64,000 bases of DNA from Choanephora cucurbitarum. Lineage: Eukaryota > Mucoromycota > Mucoromycetes > Mucorales > Choanephoraceae. The position numbers were made by a program, and so were the translations under genes. Below the pieces are notes generated by a model. The model saw only the letters and a list, made by a program, of their open reading frames with translations, ran no database searches and was not told the DNA's origin. This document shows, piece by piece, positions 27,381-50,592 of this stretch. The stretch spans positions 62,001-126,000 of the forward strand of contig JAIWNI010000029.1 of the NCBI GenBank assembly GCA_025331435.1, written 5' to 3'. The stretch's first letter is position 1. Every line of letters starts with the position of its first letter.

Positions 27381-28406
27381 ATGTCTGCTAAAAAACACGT
27401 AACTGAAGAAAGAAAAGCCTTTATCTTCGAACTGTACAAGTTAGACCTCAAACCCAAGAGAATTGCACACCTAACAAGCGTGAATGTGAAAACGGTGTAT
27501 GGAATTTTAAGCAGAGGAATTTCGCGTGATACCACAAATCGTGCTAAAGGATCAGGTAGAAAGACTGAGATGACTCCCAGAATGATTCGTGCTCTTGTCA
27601 GGGAGGTAAACTACAATAGAAGAGCAACATTGGCTGAATTGGCTGCTTCCTTGCCCAAGGCCGTCAGTGTATGCACAGTCCGTCGTGCCTTGCACAAAAT
27701 GGGGTATCGCAACCGAGTTGCTCAGAAGAAGCCTTTTCTTTCCATCATGCATCGAAAGAGAAGACTTGATTTTGCTAAAAAATATAAGAGCTGGACAGTG
27801 GAAGACTGGAAGAAGGTAATTTGGACCGATGAAAGTTCATTCGAAAATGGCAAGAATTCAGCCGTGGTGAAGGTTTGGCGCCTGACAACCGAGAAGTACC
27901 TGGAGGGCTGTCTTGCACCCAGCTTCAAGAGTGGTAGATCCTCCTTGATGGTCTGGGGTGCTATAAGGTCTGGTAAGAAGTCAGGCTTGCACTTCCTTGG
28001 CGATGAAGAACGAAGGGGCCCTGGATTCGTATCGTCCATCTACGAAGGTCCTCTGACAAGATTTTATGGATTGGAGCAGGGTCTCGTGTTGATGGAAGAT
28101 GGGGCTCCAGTCCATAGATCTAAAATTGCCAAGGAATGGAAGACAGAGAAGGGCCTTGATGTGCTAGACTGGCCTGCACAATCGCCGGATTTGAATCCAA
28201 TCGAAAATTTATGGATGATTATGAAACGGCGTGTGCAGGCCCAGGCAAGCAAGCAAGGCCGCTTCAAAACCATGGATAAACACAAGGCATGCTTGCAAAA
28301 GATTTGGGACGAACTTCAGCCCAAGGACTGGGACCGTCTTGTTGCAAGCATGCCTCAAAGACTTAGACTAGTGATAAAAAATAAAGGGGGGCCTACCCCC
28401 TATTAA
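27381..28406 (+). CDS. Tc1/mariner transposase, DD34E, intact
   Basis: The protein has 341 residues, the usual size. The N-terminus carries a helix-turn-helix (KRIAHLTSVNVKTVYGIL, about residues 26-43), a GRK-type hook (GSGRKTEMTP), and a second HTH-like unit (ATLAELAASLPKAVSVCTVRRAL). Catalytic residues are visible: D150 in IWTDESSF, D240 in LMEDGAPVH and E275 in NPIENLW, with 34 residues between the last two. WPAQSPDLNPIEN is the classical Tc1 signature. No stop or frameshift is present, so the enzyme is probably functional. It lies 58 bp inside the left TIR. Confidence 0.95.
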   Translation: MSAKKHVTEERKAFIFELYKLDLKPKRIAHLTSVNVKTVYGILSRGISRDTTNRAKGSGRKTEMTPRMIRALVREVNYNRRATLAELAASLPKAVSVCTVRRALHKMGYRNRVAQKKPFLSIMHRKRRLDFAKKYKSWTVEDWKKVIWTDESSFENGKNSAVVKVWRLTTEKYLEGCLAPSFKSGRSSLMVWGAIRSGKKSGLHFLGDEERRGPGFVSSIYEGPLTRFYGLEQGLVLMEDGAPVHRSKIAKEWKTEKGLDVLDWPAQSPDLNPIENLWMIMKRRVQAQASKQGRFKTMDKHKACLQKIWDELQPKDWDRLVASMPQRLRLVIKNKGGPTPY

Positions 28407-32174: not shown

Positions 32175-33588
32175 CTGTTATAATCAAAGTAAACTGATGG
32201 TGTTTGTCAAGTCAGAAATTCAATGTGGAAAAAATATGAGAAAATAAATGGGTCTCTTTTTTATTTTAGTATACACATAGGCCTTGAATAGTAACAATTG
32301 CTGCGTACTTGAATAAAAGAAACAAAAGTAGAGGATTCTCTTCTATGATCGTAGTGAAATCACATAGACAAGATGCTCTGCTCTTTTTTTTTTCTCTATA
32401 AATTTACCTAAACCCTCCATAGTGTCAATACCCTCTCAGTATAACAGATAAGGTATAGGGCAACTACTATATGATCTTTATGGGTTTAAATTTTACCATA
32501 AGAAGTACTTCAGTACTTATTAGTAGAGCTTATTTTGCCAGCTCACTGTACGTTCGAGAGCAAAAAGTAAGCTTTATATTTCTTTTATCGTTACATGCTA
32601 ATAAAAAAGTAAAACTAATAATTTCCTTTTTGGTAACTGATTTTATGTATCCACAACTTCTTGCGGCTAGAAAGCTATCAACTGAAGCGAGAAAGCATAG
32701 AGGAAGAGCACCTGGAGCCCGTGAGTATACATACAAGAGCTGATGGTAGAAAGCATAAAGTATTCGACAAATATATTTTGAGTTTTTGATATTCATTGGT
32801 GGTCATTGAATCAGCAATCTTTACTATTCAAGAATTCCTTGTTCTCTTATTTGAGGGGTAACTATTTGATGGCTTATAAACTAAACAAAAAGAAACGAAA
32901 AAAAAGCTGTTCCATACCATACAGTGAACAGAAAAGCAAAAGGATGTTAGGAGATCTAAAACGAATAAAAAGATATCATTTGGATAAACTATGTCACTGT
33001 CGATTTGTGTTGCTGTAAAGATGAAGTTTATTCAAAAACCCTTTTTCCGCATATGGTTTTATTTCTACAGTCTATGCAATGCTCTCACTGTAGATTGCAA
33101 TAAAAATAAATTACCATCAGATGGAAAGTTGCTACTGATACAGAGGAAAAAGCGCGAAAATATGTCTATGTCATGACATGCTCGCATTGTAAACAGATAA
33201 AAGAAAAACTCAACTCATGGTGTGAGATGACATGATATGATTTTGTTAACAAATACAACAAAACTCAAAGAAAAAGTAGTCTACGGTTATATTAACTATT
33301 CTTAGTGGAAGATTGGAATGTGGATTTCTTGTGCAAAATAAAAAGAAAAAGATAAGCGTTTTACCTTGGTTGCTGCATACCATACCTTTAAAACATGCTG
33401 CTGAGGCTAAGGTATCTTACAAAATCATCAAAAATCAATCAACTATTGTAGAGAGTTATACAAGTTGCTTGGCAGATTATAGTCTATAAGTCTATTTAAC
33501 TGAATATCTGGTGCAAAAGTCTATTTTAATATTCTGACGCATTACAGGTACTTTAATTGTTGTCTACATCTAAAGCTTCACAGAATTC
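32175..33588. other. Gene-free interval
   Basis: This 1.4-kb AT-rich stretch lies between Saf4 and the left arm of the inverted paralog block. Small frames at 32471-32743 and 32806-33018 have no motif. No gene is supported. Confidence 0.45.
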
Positions 33589-33689
33589 TCCATAAAAGCA
33601 CTACTTCTTTTCCATTTGAATTGTAACTGCTATGGACTCAACCTAGCTTGTCAGTTGAGTTTGCAATGAATTTGTTTTCTCTTCTTGCT

Positions 33690-33835
33690 TTTGTTGCTGC
33701 TGCCTTTATTGCCTTTGTTGCCTTTGTTACCTTTGTTGTTGTCAACATTGTCGTTGTTATTGTTATTGTTGTCAACATTGTTTTTGTTTTTGTTGTTTTT
33801 TGTTGTTGTTGTTGTTGTTGTCTCTTTTTTATTGT
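33690..33835 (+). repeat. GTT/TTG triplet-rich tract in promoter arm
   Basis: The + strand is rich in TTG and GTT words (GTTGTTGTTGTTGTTG at about 33800-33820). The mirror copy is CAA/AAC-rich in the right arm. It creates long open frames on both strands (poly-Val/Phe on one side, poly-Asn on the other), which look like by-products of low complexity. Confidence 0.8.
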
Positions 33836-34035
33836 CGTTATTGCTGTAGCTTTCGCTATGACCATTGCTGCTGTCATTACTGTTTTCATTGCTATTCTCA
33901 TTGTTGATGTCGAAACCAACAAACATTTCGATATTATCCACTATGAGTTATGCGCATTGCTCCAAAGTAGTTCGATATGATTCTAGTTGGCAGTCTTTGG
34001 TTTTTTTTTGTTTCCTTGCTCTCTTTTTTTTTTCA

Positions 34036-34044
34036 TATATAAAT
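34036..34044 (+). promoter_or_regulatory. TATA box of secreted paralog A
   Basis: TATATAAAT lies about 85-90 bp upstream of the ATG at 34127. The right arm carries the same box at 40179-40187. Confidence 0.6.
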
Positions 34045-34126
34045 ACTTGTCTTTTTGCTACCAGAATTTTTTTCTTACACTTGATTACATCGGATTATAT
34101 TCCACAATATTCAGTAACAGAATAAC

Positions 34127-34864
34127 ATGAAGTTCTCATCTGCCTTGATTTCTGCTTCCTTGTTGGCCACTGCCGTTTTTGCCGCTCCTGAGCCTCACGC
34201 CTCTGCTTCTGCTTCTGCTTCTCAAGTCTCCGCCGCCTCTGCCTCTGCTGTCTCTGCTGCCTCTGTTGCTGAAGCCTCGATCATTGCTAGCATGTTGGAA
34301 GCTACTGATGCTAATGCTTCTATGGATATTGCTCAACTCTTTTTCCAGAAGAGAGCCGATGATGACGACGACAAGGATTGGGACCATGACGATGACAAGG
34401 ATTGGGACCATGACGATCACCATGATGACAAGAAGAAGGACGATGTCTACATTGTTCTTGATAAGCACACTGGCGAAGATGATGTCTGTAAACTCATTCG
34501 TCAAGAGTTCTATGCTGACAAAAAGTTTGATCCCTTCGTTACTAGTAGTGATTTGATTACAGGCAACTTCAATTTCGGTTTCGGCTCGAATTCCAGAAGA
34601 TTTAACTTTGTTACAATCTTGCAAAGACTTGCCCGAAGACTTCCTGAAGCGCTCCGAGTTCCTGACCTTGCTATCCAATTCACATCAGCTCTTGCTCAAC
34701 TTGAGGGTAATGATCCAGCCGCTCGCCGAAACAGAGTGCTCGTCAGTTTGATCAATCTCTTTGGCAGAATTTCTGAGCTCTGTATCGAGCAAGATCATCG
34801 TAAATTTGGATCTAAGAAATATGAACACAACGAGCATGACTCTCATAAGCACGCATCCCACTAA
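34127..34864 (+). CDS. Secreted Ser/Ala-rich protein, paralog A, Asp/His-rich mature region
   Basis: The single coding exon gives 245 residues. Residues 1-19 are a clear signal peptide (MKFSSALISASLLATAVFA, cleavage near AAPE). A Ser/Ala-rich pro-region follows to about residue 68. Next comes a likely Kex2 site (FFQKRADD) and a strongly acidic, His-containing stretch (DDKDWDHDDHHDDKKK) that could bind metal. The mature part is largely helical, has Cys in DDVCKLIRQ and SELCIEQ, and ends His-rich (EHNEHDSHKHASH). Residues 1-68 and the promoter appear identical to paralog B; the rest is only distantly similar, with the two Cys and the motif L-x-x-R-F/I-x-x-L-C alignable. The function is unknown; an effector-like or cell-surface role is speculation. 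Confidence 0.85.
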   Translation: MKFSSALISASLLATAVFAAPEPHASASASASQVSAASASAVSAASVAEASIIASMLEATDANASMDIAQLFFQKRADDDDDKDWDHDDDKDWDHDDHHDDKKKDDVYIVLDKHTGEDDVCKLIRQEFYADKKFDPFVTSSDLITGNFNFGFGSNSRRFNFVTILQRLARRLPEALRVPDLAIQFTSALAQLEGNDPAARRNRVLVSLINLFGRISELCIEQDHRKFGSKKYEHNEHDSHKHASH

Positions 34865-34875
34865 TCCTCCCTTTC

Positions 34876-35077
34876 GTAAGTCATCAAAATGTGAACTGCC
34901 CAAACCATAGTGTGTTCTGACCTTCCTTTCTTTCTTCTTCTTCTTTTTCTCCTAACAGCCATATCAAATCATAGGCCCTGCCTGCATCTAGAATACTTCC
35001 ATTAGATTGTTGCCTATATGATTGTCGTTATTTATTATAATTTTCTTGTTAATAAAAGAAAGCTCTTAATCAAAAGT
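34876..35077 (+). repeat. Left 3' arm: 3'UTR shared with paralog B
   Basis: About 202 bp match the reverse complement of 39363-39562 with a few substitutions and a small indel in the pyrimidine run. The match begins exactly at GTAAGT, 11 nt after the stop codon, and includes a probable 3'UTR intron (GTAAGT to CTAACAG, about 34876-34968) and an AATAAA-like signal at about 35051. Confidence 0.9.
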
Positions 35078-36975
35078 AAACTAACACATGAACCGCTTGC
35101 ATATCAAATTTAATTTAAAGGACACCTTTTTCCATGTTTCTTTCAACTCCAACATGGAAAAACAAATTTTACTTCAAGAAACCTGTCACTCATGTTTCCT
35201 TTTGGAAGGCGTTAAAACAGAATTCATTCAATGAATAAAAATAAAGAGCATAACGCATGCTCTTCGTCTTGGAGCTCAACTTTTACTTTTGGTTGACAGA
35301 ATACTACAATAATTGCTCTGGAAAAAGATGACCTTTCTTGTTTGTATTGTCATCAATTTATACGAGATATCTTTCTAAATCAGCTTTTAGGTATCACTTT
35401 TCTTTGCTTTGATGAACGATCATCCAGTTAATTTTATCATTTAGGAGCTCTTTTGCCTTACCTAGGGGCACTTCTATGTGTGATTACTGATACAAAGTAT
35501 TTTGATTTTTGTATTATTGTCATTTTATATATAAAAAAAGAGAAGCATTACAATTTAGCAGCCTGATAGCATGAATAATATTTTAGCTGTGCTCTTTCTT
35601 TTAGTTTCTCACTAATTGATGACACAAGATCTCACAGCAACAGTATCTGACTTGCCGACCATTGATAGAGAATTTCTAGGTATTCCAAGACATTCAAAAT
35701 CAACCTTAGAGATTTGCATTTTCGAAGTGGCTGTTATGTTTTTCAGCACAGCATGCAACATACAAAAGCTAGGACAAAAGGTCAAGAAATGCAAGCAACG
35801 GAGGCAGTTTGAGTTTCGACCCGCAGCTACTTTACTCTCTCAATATTCCATTTCATTGTCAAAGAAAAACTAATGAATCTATTCGTCAATGCGTTATGAG
35901 GAGGCGGTATTATAGTATATGCCTTTCTCTTTGGCGCTTTCTATGCTGCTGGGTTTAGCATCAGAATGAAAGACATAGTATAAGTCAGCAATACGAGTTT
36001 GAGTTTAATGAGATCAAAGCCCTAATACTACATTTTAAACAGGTTACCGGAATTTTCAATACGATCAAATAAACTCCAGGACTAACTACTTGACACTAAT
36101 TATTTCTTGAAGGCTTGATACATGCATGTTGTTCTACAAATGATTTGTGTGTAAAGCATCTGTTAAAGGACATATCAACAAATTATTGCTATGCCTCTAT
36201 AGTCAGTCTTTGAGCGATTCTTCTAATTGGTTTATTAAGAAGAAGGCATCTCCTTGTTCGACCGATCATATAGATGTAACAAAAGACCTTTTAGAAGCGT
36301 CCTCTTTACTACAACTAAGTAATGATATAAGCAAACAATTGTGACAACTTAGTTTTGCTTTCAATATCCCATTTTAAGTAGAAGTTTCTATGGCAGCAGT
36401 CTCTTTGTTGAGTCAAGACAAGGCATTTTTGCAATGACAAATACCATAAAGTTGAACGGTCATGCTAAACAAGGTTATTTAATTGCATTAGGGATAAAGG
36501 ACTGGCTTTTCCATGAAATTCGATTCCTTTTCTTACGTAATGTGTGGTTGTTCAATTTTAGTCCGTATAAATATTCAAAACACATTCGTCATTCATACTC
36601 TAGAAGCTTTGTATTCTCGTAAACTAGTTATCTAATTGTATTACCATCATCTAGCATCCGAACCTCTTAATATGCATTGAGTACTGCTTAATGCATTTTC
36701 GAGTTTATTTCTCCAAAGTAAGCGATATTCTATTAGAACTATTGATTGCCTGTTTCGTAAAAGCCAACCATTCATCGGAACACAAATCTCACATACGTCA
36801 TTTTCGATCCCTTCAGAACTGCTTTGTCATAAATCAACGATTGGCTACTGCTACAATGCCTATGAGACAATCCACCATTGCACCTGTCTTTGTGAAACAG
36901 TAAAATAAGGCATAAATATAGCTACAGTCAAGATTTTTATACTTTTTCTTTAGCTATTCCCTACAATAATTTATC
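35078..36975. other. Interval between paralog A and catalase
   Basis: About 1.9 kb. A short inverted pair (CATGTTTC ... near 35134-35200) is visible. The 85-residue frame at 35616-35873 (TDLPTIDREFLGIPRHSKS region) has no recognised family and is not called. No other gene is supported. Confidence 0.4.
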
Positions 36976-38479
36976 ATGTCTAATCCTATCTTAACTACTT
37001 CTAACGGCTGTCCTGTCGACAACGATCAAACATCTATTACTGCAGGCGTCAATGGCCCTGTCCTTATCTCTGATTTCCATCTAATTGACAAGATCTCTCA
37101 CTTCGATAGAGAGCGCATTCCTGAACGTGTTGTTCACGCTAAGGGTGCTGGTGCTCACGGTGAATTTGGTAAGCCTATGAATTGCGTTGACAAATACATA
37201 CATGTGTTCTAACTATTTCACAGTGGTCACACATGATGTTTCTCATCTTACAAAGGCCAAGTTCTTGAATGGCATTGGCAAAAAGACACCTATGTTTGCT
37301 CGCTTCTCTACAGTTGGTGGTGAGAAGGGTAGTGCAGATACTGCACGTGACCCTCGAGGTTTCTCACTCAAGTTCTACACTGAAGAAGGTAACCTTGATG
37401 TTGTTGGTAACAACACACCTGTCTTCTTTATCCGTGACCCCTCTAAGTTCCCTGACTTCATCCACACACAAAAGCGTGACCCTAAGAGCAACCTAAAGAA
37501 TCCTGAAGCCAAGTGGGACTTTTACACTTCTGTTCCTGAATCCTTGCATCAAGTTACCGTTCTCATGTCAAACTATGGTACTCCTGATGGCTTTCGATTC
37601 ATGCATGGCTATGGCTCTCATACGTTCAAGCTAGTGGATAACAATGGTAAATTCAAGTATTTTAAGTGGCACTTCAAATCTAAACAAGGCAGCAAGAACT
37701 TGAAAGCAAAGCAAGCTCTTGAACTAGAAGGCTCTGATCCTGATTATGCTACTAGAGATATGTTTGAAGCAATCGAGCGTGGCGATTATCCTTCCTGGGA
37801 TGTCTATTTCCAAGTAATGGAACCTGAAGATGCAAAGAAGTATCGTTGGAACATCTTTGACGTAACCAAGGTCTGGCCTCACAAAGATTATCCACTTATT
37901 CCTGTTGGTACATTTACCTTAAACAGAAACCCTGAAAACTACTTTGCAGAAACCGAGCAAGCTGCTTTCTCGCCTTCTCACATAGTACCTGGTATCGATG
38001 TCTCGGCTGATCGTATGTTGCAAGGCCGTCTGTTTTCTTATCCTGATGCTCACAGATACCGTCTTGGCGTGAACTATCATCAAATTCCCATCAATCGTCC
38101 CATTGCCCCTGTCAATAACTATCAGCGCGATGGCTTTATGACTGTCAATGACAATGGTGGCTCCAGTGCCAACTATGGTCCTAACTCTACGGGAGGTCCT
38201 GTACAAAACAACATTATTGGGTCCACATTTGCTCCTGAAGAAGTCGAAGGTATGACTGGTAGATTTAGTTACCAAGTAACTGATGATGATTTTGTTCAAC
38301 CTGGAAATCTATACCGCCTTATGAGCGAAGAAGACAAGAATGACTTGGCCGAGAATATTGTTGAAGAACTTGTTCTCTGTAAGCAAGAAATTGTCGATAA
38401 GGCCTTGGCAATGTTTGAACGCGCCGATCCCGATTATCGTGCTCGTGTCGAAAAGGCTTTATCTAAGGCTAAGCAATAA
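36976..38479 (+). CDS. Catalase (heme, small-subunit clade)
   Basis: The enzyme dismutates H2O2. Two exons (36976-37168, 37224-38479) give 482 residues, fitting small-subunit catalases. The active-site signature is split by the intron: [20 protein letters not shown] (distal His in VVHAKG) and EFVVTHD. Further landmarks are [20 protein letters not shown], the distal Asn in [13 protein letters not shown], and the proximal heme Tyr in [14 protein letters not shown]. There is no C-terminal flavodoxin-like domain and no clear signal peptide. The last residues (SKAKQ) are not a canonical PTS1. It lies between two inverted paralogs of a secreted protein but shares no sequence with them. Confidence 0.96.
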
Positions 38480-38862
38480 ATGTACATAAATTCTAAAGAA
38501 AATAGGTCATTATGACCTCATGTTTATACTCAAACAAAATAAATAAATTTTCCTAATACGTTAAAAAATCTCTGTACAACGCGATCTTGATTGAGAACAA
38601 ATCTCGATAAGCAACACTATCATATGTAGAATAAAAATGATGCTATAGAAAAATTAGCTTAAACAAGCAGAAAAATTTAAAGAAAGTCTTTGTATCAAAT
38701 GATCTATGTGTTAATGAACTGAGTATTCCAATTAAAACATATGAGATGGCCATATAGGCCAGATTAACTATGTATCTTACGATGGCTGTTATTTTGACAC
38801 AGGAAATTATGAAGGTAGAGTCAGGCAAAATTATCTAACACGAAAGACTAAGAACTGTGATA
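38480..38862. other. Catalase 3' region
   Basis: The interval holds the probable 3'UTR, a palindromic GGTCATTATGACC at about 38506-38518, and AATAAATAAA near 38538. No gene is seen. Confidence 0.5.
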
Positions 38863-39003
38863 CAGTCATCTCCCAATTAAGAGAACAGTCTCGGTTTCCT
38901 CGACAAGGCTCCCTGAATCAATGCCGTTCCTTGTTTTCTAAAACAATAACAGCGAATGACCAGCGTTAATCGAACTTCGGTTCCCTAAATCGAGGGATGA
39001 TTG
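38863..39003. mobile_element. Degenerate pogo-like MITE, 141 bp
   Basis: The left end reads CAGTCATCTCCCAATTAAG and the reverse complement of the right end reads CAATCATCCCTCGATTTAG, matching at 14 of 19 positions. TA flanks both ends (38861-38862 and 39004-39005). The CAGTC start with an AATTAAG/GATTTAG word resembles pogo/Tigger termini. There is no coding capacity. Confidence 0.5.
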
Positions 39004-39362
39004 TAAAGTGTTGATGAGTAGCACAATTTGTTATACGGACAGGAAATATCATTTAAATGAATCGTAATCAGCCTTCAAGCTTCATAAGATCAGCGCTTTT
39101 TTTGAATAATTGTAACTTGCTATACGCAATCTCTCGACCTGGTATTATTGAACTCACTTTACTATGTGCTTCAAACATTTAAAATGTAGAGCTTTCTTAC
39201 TCTTTAATTCCGAGACCTTATTCTACTTAGCATGATGGACGTCTTTGTAAAGGGAAAGCAATTTAACATGGAGCATAGTAAGCGCAGGCTGATTGAGTGT
39301 ATTATGCTATCGTATACATTTTATTGGCAAGTCCCAAACAATGAAAAGGAAAAAGGAGTTTC

Positions 39363-39562
39363 ACTTTTGATTAAGAGCTTTCTTTTATTAACAAGAAAAT
39401 TATAATAAATAACGACAATCATATAGGCAACAATCTAATGGAAGTATTCTAGATGCAGGCAGGGCCTATGATTTGATATGGCTGTTAGAAGAAGAAGAAG
39501 AAAGAAAGAAAGGAAGGTCAGAACACACTATGGTTTGGGTAGTTCACATTTTGATGACTTAC
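39363..39562 (-). repeat. Right 3' arm: 3'UTR shared with paralog A
   Basis: This is the reverse-complement counterpart of 34876-35077, beginning at GTAAGT directly after the diverged coding part. It contains the same probable 3'UTR intron ending CTAACAG. Confidence 0.9.
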
Positions 39563-39580
39563 ACAGCCGACAGAGCATGG

Positions 39581-40096
39581 TTATACTATGGTTCTACATA
39601 AATCAGCAAATCTTCCAAGCAAGAGAGCGACCAAGCGAATGGCAATTAGGCGATCATTTGTGATTGCAGGAGCAGGCTGAGCCACGAGACCAGTTGCAAA
39701 ACCTACGTCCGTGAGATTAAGGTCATTTGAGATGATTTGAGCAATATCGTTACGAGTGAGGAATTTGCAGAAGCTGTGCTTTCTATCACCATCAACAACA
39801 ACAACCAAATCATCACCCTTCTTATCATGATGATCATAACCATAGTCGTCATAGTCGTATTTCTTGTGACCACCGTCTTTCAAAAGGTTCGTAATATCCA
39901 TAGAAGCATTAGCATCAGTAGCTTCCAACATGCTAGCAATGATCGAGGCTTCAGCAACAGAGGCAGCAGAGACAGCAGAGGCAGAGGCGGCGGAGACTTG
40001 AGAAGCAGAAGCAGAAGCAGAGGCGTGAGGCTCAGGAGCGGCAAAAACGGCAGTGGCCAACAAGGAAGCAGAAATCAAGGCAGATGAGAACTTCAT
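39581..40096 (-). CDS. Secreted Ser/Ala-rich protein, paralog B, diverged mature region
   Basis: The protein has 171 residues. The first 68 (signal peptide plus Ser/Ala pro-region through MDI) appear identical to paralog A at 34127. The mature part is shorter and different: a Tyr/Asp/His stretch (KKYDYDDYGYDHHDKKGDD), a hydrophobic strand (LVVVVDGD), Cys in SFCKFLTRN, and a helical C-terminus LIAIRLVALLLGRFADLC ending RTIV. It lacks the Kex2-like KR and the His-rich tail of paralog A. The pair VCK/FCK and ELC/DLC suggests one conserved disulfide. The stop lies 18 nt before the shared splice donor. Function unknown. Confidence 0.85.
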   Translation of the reverse strand: MKFSSALISASLLATAVFAAPEPHASASASASQVSAASASAVSAASVAEASIIASMLEATDANASMDITNLLKDGGHKKYDYDDYGYDHHDKKGDDLVVVVDGDRKHSFCKFLTRNDIAQIISNDLNLTDVGFATGLVAQPAPAITNDRLIAIRLVALLLGRFADLCRTIV

Positions 40097-40634
40097 GTTA
40101 TTCTGTTACTGAATATTGTGGAATATAATCCGATGTAATCAAGTGTAAGAAAAAAATTCTGGTAGCAAAAAGACAAGTATTTATATATGAAAAAAAAAAG
40201 AGAGCAAGGAAACAAAAAAAAACCAAAGACTGCCAACTAGAATCATATCGAACTACTTTGGAGCAATGCGCATAACTCATAGTGGATAATATCGAAATGT
40301 TTGTTGGTTTCGACATCAACAATGAGAATAGCAATGAAAACAGTAATGACAGCAGCAATGGTCATAGCGAAAGCTACAGCAATAACGACAATAAAAAAGA
40401 GACAACAACAACAACAACAACAAAAAACAACAAAAACAAAAACAATGTTGACAACAATAACAATAACAACGACAATGTTGACAACAACAAAGGTAACAAA
40501 GGCAACAAAGGCAATAAAGGCAGCAGCAACAAAAGCAAGAAGAGAAAACAAATTCATTGCAAACTCAACTGACAAGCTAGGTTGAGTCCATAGCAGTTAC
40601 AATTCAAATGGAAAAGAAGTAGTGCTTTTATGGA
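39893..40634 (-). repeat. Right 742-bp arm of inverted repeat (promoter, signal peptide, pro-region)
   Basis: This is the inverted copy of 33589-34330, with the CAA/AAC-rich tract at about 40388-40533. Similarity ends abruptly on both sides: after codon 68 of the gene and 538 bp upstream of the ATG. Confidence 0.93.
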
Positions 40635-47001: not shown

Positions 47002-48846
47002 TTGGAATATATCAATCATGAAGATGCTGTCTTCAATGCCTTTTTCAGGATCGATAGGATACAACAGTTATGCAGAAAACGTAAACTGATTTTTGCTCAT
47101 CATCTTCATTTGCTGCCTGGTGGAAAGTATGTCAAAATCCTTAGAATCAAAGAAAATTCGCCCATGAAGCAGACTGCTGATGTAACGGGCCAAAAGCGTC
47201 AGTACAACATTCCTGAATCAACCTGGCAAGATATTCTCAATGAGCATGACAAAGACAATGAAACCTTGAGACAAGAAATTGATGGACTCTTGGTGAACAC
47301 CAACCGCTTGTTAAACCAGTTGAAAGATAGTTTTAAAGAATTCAGCGATCAAGATTTTGGTTTGCAGATCAAAACTGCCAAGCAAGGCTGGAAAACCCCA
47401 CTTAATCTTGAGCCTGAAGTTGCTGTTGTGCAAGGTAGTGATTCTGAAGAAGAGGCAGGTGTGTGTTGTCCTTAAATCGGTGAATGTATTACTGGTGTTC
47501 AGACACAAATTGCAGACATTGCAAGAACTATACAGTCTCGTATCCGACGTCCGCGTGCCAACAACGATGAAGAGTTGATTGCTGCTGCTAGAGATGAGAT
47601 CAAGGTGTACATTGATGGATTGAAGGCTGAGAGAAGTAGGTTGTTTCTGGCTATTCAACAAGTCAAGTCTGAACTGGCAGACCAGCGATACCAGCGATAC
47701 CAGCGATACCAGCTACATATTCGCAGAAGAGCATTAAATTTGACAAGAAGAGATCAAAAAGCGCCCAGACAAACCAAAGCACTGCAGCAGATCACAGGGC
47801 AGCCTGCAATTACTAAAGCTAAAGATATGGAACTGATGGGTGACGCTGTTACCATTGCTAAAATTTTTACCTTCTCCGGCACAGACAATGGTGTTGTCAA
47901 AATGACTGAATCAGTGCCAGTTTCCATTCAAAAATACGTTTACCATCTGAAGCTCTACAACAGGTTTTCTGCTTTGACTACTACTGAAGAACAAGAAGAA
48001 GAATTTCAGCTTTTGTCATCGTCCACTGTCATCAATGCTGAAAATATTGACTTTGGAAGCCAAAACTTGAACTACAGACACAAGCTTGCTGCTTTAAAAG
48101 CGAATGATGTGAATTTGATTCAAGTTGAGAAGGTGTTGTCCGAAAAAAGTATATCCAATGCAAGTTCCGTAGAAGCAATCCAGATAAACTACCAATTTTT
48201 GCAAGCCAATAGGCAGATAGTCAGGAACTTTTATGATTCTCCACAAAGATCTAAACAGGCCATGAAGCAGGAATACTTTACCAAGAAAACCAAGGACCGC
48301 CTTTGCTCTCGTGAAAGGGGATTGATGAATCCTAATTCGAAAAAGAAAGATGTCAAGAAGAAAGGGAAAGAAACACAAAGAAAGAACCTGTTGATGATGA
48401 TTAGTGATCGTGGCTTTGGGATAAGTTCCAGAATTAGAGGACATCTTAGATATGGTGGTATTTGGAAGCAAGATCAGCATGCAAGGTATACGACTGTCTG
48501 TATCACAAATGAAAACTATATTTCCCAGACTTGTTTGTATTGTTTCAACAAGCTCGCTCATGCAAGATCGCACATTATCAAACAAGACAAAATAACTTAT
48601 AGAGAAATCAAAGGTGCCTTTATCTGCTATAATTCCAAGTGCCCTTCTGCTCGTCACGGTCGTAACACAACCTCCAGAGATAAAGTGTCTGCCCTAGCTA
48701 TTGCTATTTCCGGAATTACAACTTTGCTGTTCCAACAAACTCTTCCCGCATTCTCAAGAACCATCAGTCACTCCAACACTGATTTCAATCGCAGAACAGC
48801 ATCCTTCTGTACAAGAAGCGGTATATTGGCTGCGCGCAAAGCGTGA
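47002..48846 (+). CDS. Fanzor-type (TnpB-like) RNA-guided nuclease, N-terminus possibly truncated
   Basis: The C-terminal half has the RuvC/zinc-ribbon layout of Fanzor1 proteins, eukaryotic relatives of TnpB. The RuvC-I Asp is in FSGTDNGVVKM (47884-47886). DRGFGISSRIRGHLRYGGIW precedes NENYISQTCLYC, with a Glu (48511-48513) at the shifted position described for Fanzors. The zinc ribbon is CLYC plus CYNSKC, and the RuvC-III Asp is in TTSRDKVSALAIAIS (48679-48681). An in-frame TAA at 47473 interrupts the frame. A 57-nt intron at 47459-47515 (GTGTGT to TTGCAG) removes it and keeps the frame, giving about 595 residues. There is no in-frame ATG before 47164, so the start is in a lost or unseen exon. 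An RYQ triple repeat lies near 47686-47712. An IS630-like transposase follows on the same strand. Confidence 0.8.
47683..47716 (+). repeat. 9-bp tandem repeat inside Fanzor gene
   Basis: The unit CAGCGATAC is repeated about 3.5 times and encodes the peptide repeat QRY. Confidence 0.9.
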
Positions 48847-49257: not shown

Positions 49258-50592
49258 ATGTCCCAGCAAGCAGAGAGCTCTCGTTTAGCGTCCGGTTTGC
49301 TCGAAGTTGCAGAAAACTCTCTTCCTTTTACTTCGAGCAAAGTAATGGGGTTGAAGGAGACAGTTATGCAAAGCATTAGCGATTCTTGTCATCAGGCCAG
49401 TCCTTTAGTTTCAAACGGAGAAGATATTTCTTCAAAAACCATACCTTCTTCTGTTGATCTTGCTACTTCAACTACAGTGCAGACACGCAAGGCGCCGAGC
49501 AAGCGAAACTGCGAATACAAAAAATATGACGACCAGCAAATCACTGACTATATCAATTTAATTACTGAAGGTGTATCAGTAAAAGAGGCAGCCCAAAGAC
49601 TGAACATCACAATCAACACAGCTTATCGCTATAGGAAGATGTGGAACAAAGGCGGTGTGACACCTGTAAGAAACAAAAGAGGGCCAGCAGAAGGTGCCAT
49701 GTCTAAATTGAAAGAAGAGCATACTAGATTTATTATACATTATATCGACAATGAAAAAAAAGATGGTGCTCTGATGCATATACGTGAAGCTCTTCAAAAA
49801 GAGTTTCCCGGGCTGGAAGTCTCTTGCTCTGCACTACATAGACACATGAAATCCAAATGCGCCATCAGTTTAAAGCGAATTCATCTAGCACCTGAAACAC
49901 GGAACGATACTGAGCTTATTGCTGCTATCGAAACTTGGCTGGCCAGTAAAGATATGGATTTGGAGAAAAACTGCGTATTCGTGGGGGAAGCCGTTTATAG
50001 TTTGCATACCTCTCGTCACCATGGTTGGAAGAACCGGAACAAGGCAGACAATGTTGTTCTTCCACTCAATCAGCAACGCAACGATTCCGCAGGCGGCACA
50101 AATATTCATATTTTGGGCGCTATCTCAGCTAAAGGTGTTATTAATGTGTCGACTCGAAAGGGGAAAATGCAGAAACATGCCGAAAGAGACGACAGAGACG
50201 CACTGACAACAGTCTCTCATGAATGCGATCAATATGTTGCTTATTTAATGAACGTGCTAAACATATTGGACAGCCATCATTTGAATGGATTCTATCTTTT
50301 AATGGATGATGCTCACATCAAAGATCCGCTGGCAGTCAAGTCAAAAATTGAAGAGCGAGGGTACAAGTGTGCCTTCCTACCTACTGTACTACCCTTCCCT
50401 AATCCTATTGAAAAGTTCTGGATAAAAACATTAACTAGCGTTGATCGCTCTCCGTTGATTCAAGCTGATGTCAGCAATCGAATTGCACAAGCATGTTTGA
50501 GTATAACTCCAAACGATTGTTGCGAATGGATTCAGCAATCTGTTCCCTATTCCCCACTTCGCTTATCTTCGGTAGGTAGAGGTATACTCTAG
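49258..50592 (+). CDS. IS630/Tc1-like transposase with first catalytic Asp replaced by Gly
   Basis: The ATG at 49258 gives 444 residues; the open frame extends upstream to 49150 without an ATG. A helix-turn-helix (ITEGVSVKEAAQRLNITINTAY, near residues 102-123) precedes an IS630-type DDE domain. Where the family reads FVDEAGF the sequence has VFVGEAVYSLH, with GGG (Gly) in place of the Asp codon at residue 243. The second Asp (residue 350, LLMDDAHI) and Glu (residue 385, FPNPIEKFW) are intact with 34 residues between. GWKNRNKA and HILGAISAKGVI also match the family. Without the first Asp it should be catalytically inactive. The frame is otherwise undamaged, so recent inactivation or domestication are both possible. 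No flanking TIRs were found by eye. Confidence 0.85.
   Translation: MSQQAESSRLASGLLEVAENSLPFTSSKVMGLKETVMQSISDSCHQASPLVSNGEDISSKTIPSSVDLATSTTVQTRKAPSKRNCEYKKYDDQQITDYINLITEGVSVKEAAQRLNITINTAYRYRKMWNKGGVTPVRNKRGPAEGAMSKLKEEHTRFIIHYIDNEKKDGALMHIREALQKEFPGLEVSCSALHRHMKSKCAISLKRIHLAPETRNDTELIAAIETWLASKDMDLEKNCVFVGEAVYSLHTSRHHGWKNRNKADNVVLPLNQQRNDSAGGTNIHILGAISAKGVINVSTRKGKMQKHAERDDRDALTTVSHECDQYVAYLMNVLNILDSHHLNGFYLLMDDAHIKDPLAVKSKIEERGYKCAFLPTVLPFPNPIEKFWIKTLTSVDRSPLIQADVSNRIAQACLSITPNDCCEWIQQSVPYSPLRLSSVGRGIL

Follow-up and report, generated by a model that had tools for sequence, protein, structure and literature searches.

The stretch of DNA considered here, a 64,000-nucleotide window of the fungus Choanephora cucurbitarum (positions 62001-126000 of contig JAIWNI010000029.1), carries two genes for putative secreted proteins, termed A and B, that are inverted and point towards each other from either side of a catalase gene (Table 1). 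Each gene begins within a 5' arm, comprising upstream DNA and the first 68 codons (the leader), continues into a mature core, and is followed by a 3' arm. The inverted arms are spaced about 5.6 kb apart for the 5' pair and about 4.3 kb apart for the 3' pair. Both are covered by the one contig, which is 316,360 bp long in an assembly of 33.4 Mb and 357 contigs; the window contains no N, and the two arms are distinct in their flanks on both sides. The protein of gene A combines a signal-peptide-like start, a Ser/Ala-rich leader, a Lys-Arg (KR) site, an Asp/His/Trp-rich stretch and two Cys, and that of gene B the same leader as A, an Asp/His/Tyr-rich stretch and two Cys. Both are classed here, with secretion assigned by eye from the sequence, as putatively secreted, acidic, His/Asp-rich, two-cysteine proteins.

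Table 1. Features of the A/B locus in window coordinates, with open reading frames (ORFs) C and D in assembly coordinates (UTR, untranslated region).
Feature	Coordinates	Strand	Remarks
Gene A	34127..34864	+	ORF = P0001; 245-aa putative secreted protein
Gene B	39581..40096	-	ORF = P0002; 171-aa putative secreted protein
Left 5' arm	33589..34330	+	538 bp upstream + gene A codons 1-68; repeat search and alignment
Right 5' arm	39893..40634	-	538 bp upstream + gene B codons 1-68; repeat search and alignment
Lys-Arg codons, gene A residues 75-76	34349..34354	+	Possible Kex2 site closing the pro-region
Core of gene A, codons 69-245	34331..34861	+	Diverged from core B
Core of gene B, codons 69-171	39584..39892	-	Diverged from core A
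Left 3' arm	34876..35080	+	Starts after 11 nt past the gene A stop codon
Right 3' arm	39360..39562	-	Alignment with left 3' arm
Candidate 3'UTR intron, gene A	34876..34958	+	GTAAGT...CTAACAG, 83 nt; read from sequence
Candidate 3'UTR intron, gene B	39482..39562	-	81 nt; read from alignment
Catalase gene	36976..38479	+	482 aa; 1 predicted intron, 37169-37223
ORF C	G000:C212:151210-152061	Same as D	Secretion-like start, D/W/H-rich stretch, KR
ORF D	G000:C212:155153-155590	Same as C	Secretion-like start, D/W/H-rich stretch

The ends of the two genes are homogenised at the DNA level. When the left 5' arm is aligned with the reverse complement of the right, 0 of 742 positions differ, bearing out the claim of an earlier note, made from the sequence alone, that 538 bp of upstream DNA and codons 1-68 are identical in the two genes; such an exact 742-bp run is not a product of chance. 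In the window species, the homogenisation extends to silent and non-coding sites. The identity ends sharply on both sides, with mismatches within 33580-33588 and from 34331 onward, and a repeat search scores the same arms as a 753-nt pair at 99%. The 3' arms align over 205 columns with four mismatches and one 2-nt gap, in agreement with the roughly 200 bp of near-identical 3'UTR that had been reported. Of the two tracts, the 5' one appears to be the more recent (0/742 versus 4 mismatches in 203 aligned positions for the 3' one), and this inequality of age fits separate copying events. Both 3' arms open exactly at GTAAGT, with TAACAG ending 83 and 81 nt further on, and the shared 3' block hence seems to begin at a candidate 3'UTR intron just past the stop codon.

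Between these ends, the coding sequence is strongly diverged, as the earlier note had also described. Over 95 aligned codons, the proportions of nonsynonymous (pN) and synonymous (pS) differences between cores A and B are 0.44 and 0.82, the latter saturated, though the core alignment is gappy and these figures are rough. The 68 leader codons differ at none of about 54 synonymous sites, compared with about 50 of 61 in the core (Fisher p 4e-22 on rounded site counts). As silent sites do not become saturated through selection on amino acids alone, the cores split long ago, which means that recent duplication of the genes in full cannot explain the identical ends.

Relatives of the two proteins provide an outgroup, with the comparison made at the protein level. 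A protein database search with one sequence yielded five proteins, namely the two of the window, two from Blakeslea trispora (P0003 and P0004) and P0005; a profile search built from these five added no further members among the 8000 candidates sharing most words that were scored. B. trispora is the nearest named relative of the A/B proteins and carries both gene types. Its genes BD560DRAFT_427161 and BD560DRAFT_427159 are close by locus tag, apparently on one contig (147,724), and the tags suggest that a single gene lies between them. Past the leader, P0003 resembles gene A, including the acidic repeat and the KR site common to both, whereas P0004 and P0005 resemble gene B. The leaders group differently. 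Within species, they are identical at 68/68 residues between A and B, and at 54/55 aligned residues, with 13 gap positions, in the Blakeslea pair; between species, identity falls to 42/55 (A and P0003) and 47/66 (B and P0004). The acidic block that adjoins the leader follows gene type, with 36/52 identities between A and P0003 (score 198) and 26/42 between B and P0004 (score 125), versus 19/36 between A and B (score 58) and 21/53 between P0003 and P0004 (score 69).

Approximately unbiased (AU) tests, comparing five topologies for the five proteins under one fixed model and on single alignments, support this division. For the leader, both topologies that group the sequences by locus are rejected (p 1.8e-4 and 8e-13). 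For the acidic block, both topologies that group them by species are rejected (p 1.5e-5 and 6.7e-4), as they are for the acidic block with the tail (p 6.4e-5 and 1.4e-4). The core does not separate the two locus topologies from each other; their difference lies in the attachment points of P0005 and P0002. Paralogue leaders are thus more alike than orthologue leaders while the adjoining acidic block keeps its orthology, the hallmarks of concerted evolution.

Within the C. cucurbitarum genome, few loci with the arrangement were found, all match counts being lower bounds. The leader protein has two matches, genes A and B, and the 3' block likewise two, its own arms; no spare cores were found, as cores A and B each match only themselves at E<=1 across the genome. 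Promoter-plus-leader DNA gives 12 rows, two of which are the arms; the other ten (62-169 bp, 68-83% identity) all lie where the query is rich in TTG and are excluded from the member count. The earlier note had raised the prospect of a genome-wide family with constant leaders and variable cores, serving as a diversification system; the search instead recovers two members and two more distant look-alikes. The latter, ORFs C and D, are among four weaker rows obtained with P0003 beyond A and B. The remaining two were set aside by eye as matches of composition: L022 (E 0.0016) is an Ala/Pro-rich and then Asp/Glu/Lys-rich frame lacking an A-like leader, and L023 contains stops. A weak row obtained with P0005 (L019) also contains stops and was discarded on the same grounds.

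The C/D pair, two acidic proteins with a secreted-like appearance, lies about 49 kb from A/B on the same contig, and C is weakly linked to A (E 0.024). C and D differ at 10 of 164 aligned positions in a proximal upstream block, with 20 gap columns, versus 122 of 303, with 446 gap columns, further upstream. Their leader pS is 0.08, over 28 codons picked after viewing the alignment, compared with a near-saturated 0.76 in the remainder. From comparison of C and D with each other, the pair appears to echo the A/B pattern in a weaker form and is at most a candidate for conversion.

Taken together, leaders that group by species and cores that group by gene indicate that the cores are old and that one gene has received its ends from the other by copying. 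Very probably, A and B are old inverted paralogues whose ends have been homogenised by conversion, as the earlier note had proposed among other possibilities, while their cores have stayed distinct. The pattern amounts to concerted evolution that leaves a divergence peak in the core, gene conversion being the most likely copying process. A and B would already have been distinct before the split from the Blakeslea lineage. Non-allelic recombination between the inverted arms would then recurrently copy the promoter, signal peptide and pro-region from one gene to the other, with the 3'UTR copied as a separate tract, which would keep the ends similar inside each species. At the mature core, where the sequences are too different for recombination, copying would halt. 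The cores have probably been kept different because the mature proteins do different jobs; selection holding them apart is possible. The common leader likely sends both proteins down the secretory pathway; in A, a Kex2-type cleavage at the KR site probably removes it, freeing an acidic, His/Asp-rich, two-cysteine protein. A more speculative extension, tentative and rather unlikely, is that promoter-and-leader conversion is itself selected for, as it would keep two secreted partner proteins matched in expression and export even as the mature parts of the two diverge; C/D would share this arrangement, and recurrent inversion of the catalase segment would be a side effect at A/B.

Several observations weigh against this interpretation. 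The leader does not separate the two species topologies in the AU tests, which themselves rest on one fixed model and single alignments, and the sample is just five proteins, with Blakeslea represented by protein sequence. In the acidic block, the cross-type score of A with P0004 (87) exceeds that of A with B (58), and the alignment of B with P0004 has 16 gap positions. Pair scores for the tail are 48 for A and P0003, 44 for P0004 and P0005, 41 for the cross-type pair P0003 and P0005, and only 18 for B and P0004; as the tails align poorly and without clear locus grouping, the grouping by locus rests on the acidic block. The Blakeslea gene models are unverified, and the C-terminus of P0004 may be mis-predicted.

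Other explanations of the identical ends fare considerably worse. An assembly artefact, in which the arms were collapsed and then duplicated in the consensus, erasing true differences, is improbable. The arms are exactly identical and longer than short reads, and an assembler could have written the consensus of one arm over the other. However, the window has no N and the flanks are distinct, the 3' arms retain differences, and the independent Blakeslea gene models also have near-equal leaders; moreover, the contrast with the core would hold even if some arm differences had been erased. Slightly less probable still is that the whole unit was duplicated recently and that its mature part then came under very strong diversifying selection. 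This would account for identical ends and for the many amino acid differences in the core, but not for saturated silent sites in the core next to a leader without a silent change, nor for each core having its own Blakeslea relative. Recent strong diversifying selection, which the earlier note had offered as a possible cause, is not supported because of this silent-site contrast.

Exchange of cores as cassettes behind a constant promoter and leader, in the manner of antigenic variation and likewise considered in the earlier note, is very improbable. The abrupt boundaries of the core, at codon 68 on one side and the 3' block on the other, do look cassette-like. Nevertheless, because each core has a Blakeslea relative and no spare cores were found in genome searches whose counts are lower bounds, exchange is not supported; just two leaders were found in those searches, and the same two core types recur in another genus. 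In Pneumocystis, the MSG system places an upstream conserved sequence, i.e. a constant promoter and leader, ahead of a variable surface protein. A and B, unlike MSG, form a fixed pair in which either gene has a promoter of its own, and the genome searches found no archive. Equally improbable is extreme purifying selection on promoter, silent sites and leader without any copying: promoters and signal peptides can be constrained, yet A and P0003 differ at 13 of 55 aligned leader residues where the paralogue leaders are identical, and even silent changes in the leader are zero.

Recurrent conversion between inverted paralogues has already been described in fungi. In wheat powdery mildew, the AvrPm17 pair consists of inverted segments of 2,300 bp situated 4,769 bp apart that undergo recurrent conversion, and in 97% of the isolates with two copies the pair of mature proteins encoded is identical (PMC9335242). 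A/B is similar in that inverted duplicated segments hold two secreted-protein genes that are kept alike, but differs in being alike at the ends only, with saturated mature parts and a catalase gene between. The flip/flop region of Saccharomyces chromosome XIV has 4.2-kb inverted repeats 24 kb apart and an inversion polymorphism, with paralogues of one gene 97% alike compared with 72% for orthologues (PMC9731477). It resembles A/B in the long-term homogenisation of inverted repeats within species, with greater similarity between paralogues than orthologues, though flip/flop homogenises whole genes rather than ends only, and A/B is known from one assembly. The red/green opsins show low divergence in their flanks and high divergence in the functional part, with selection keeping the copies different despite conversion (PMC3924837). 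Relative to this Teshima-Innan type of divergence peak, the A/B peak extends over all of the mature coding part and has reached saturation.

What is less usual about A/B is the combination of a homogenised promoter, leader and 3'UTR with a mature part saturated along its whole length. In this early-diverging fungus, the locus is a clean natural case of conversion and divergence shaping neighbouring stretches of a single gene, visible in two lineages at the protein level and, more weakly, in the C/D pair. It raises the question of whether secreted-protein pairs are kept co-regulated through promoter copying, and also serves as a warning, given that dating based on the ends would make the A/B duplication look wrongly recent. 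Among the papers listed on gene conversion in Mucorales or Choanephoraceae and on Choanephoraceae genera and genomes, no title or displayed abstract describing the locus was found, though this is not proof of its absence.

That A and B bind metal, act at the wall or have another role outside the cell is a guess. None of the five proteins P0001-P0005 reaches a curated Pfam cut-off, with weak sub-threshold matches in three of five (best E 0.049). Four weak matches in a PDB sequence search were dismissed as composition; the best (E 0.031) is to sc-apCC-6-LLIA, presumably a designed coiled coil. A structure model with a mean predicted local distance difference test (pLDDT) score of 41 was set aside. 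The A/B type resembles the KEX2-processed repeat proteins (KEPs) in having a secretion leader, a dibasic site and then an acidic repeat-like stretch. KEPs are defined by a series of three or more similar fragments cut at KR/RR/KK sites (PMC6339444), and by eye P0001-P0005 do not have such a series.

Minor features of the locus include a 91-aa Asn-rich open frame antisense within both 5' arms (40297-40572, + strand, in the right arm), which is of low complexity and lacks a Pfam match. The catalase of the window is identical to its nearest named relative, the Gilbertella persicaria catalase P0006, at 446 of 481 residues. A second catalase-like locus (G000:C201:220353-221905) is in pieces with in-frame stops, which may reflect introns or decay. 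Rfam at the gathering score and ARAGORN gave no matches. The C-terminus of an ORF at 47827-48846 (+) resembles a TnpB/Fanzor zinc ribbon by eye, though the Fanzor/TnpB reading was rejected as lacking Pfam support. Two further ORFs of the window are transposase-like: a Tc1-type transposase with HTH_Tnp_Tc3_2 and DDE_3 domains at 27381-28406 (+), and a DDE-type ORF with helix-turn-helix (HTH) domains at 49258-50592 (+).

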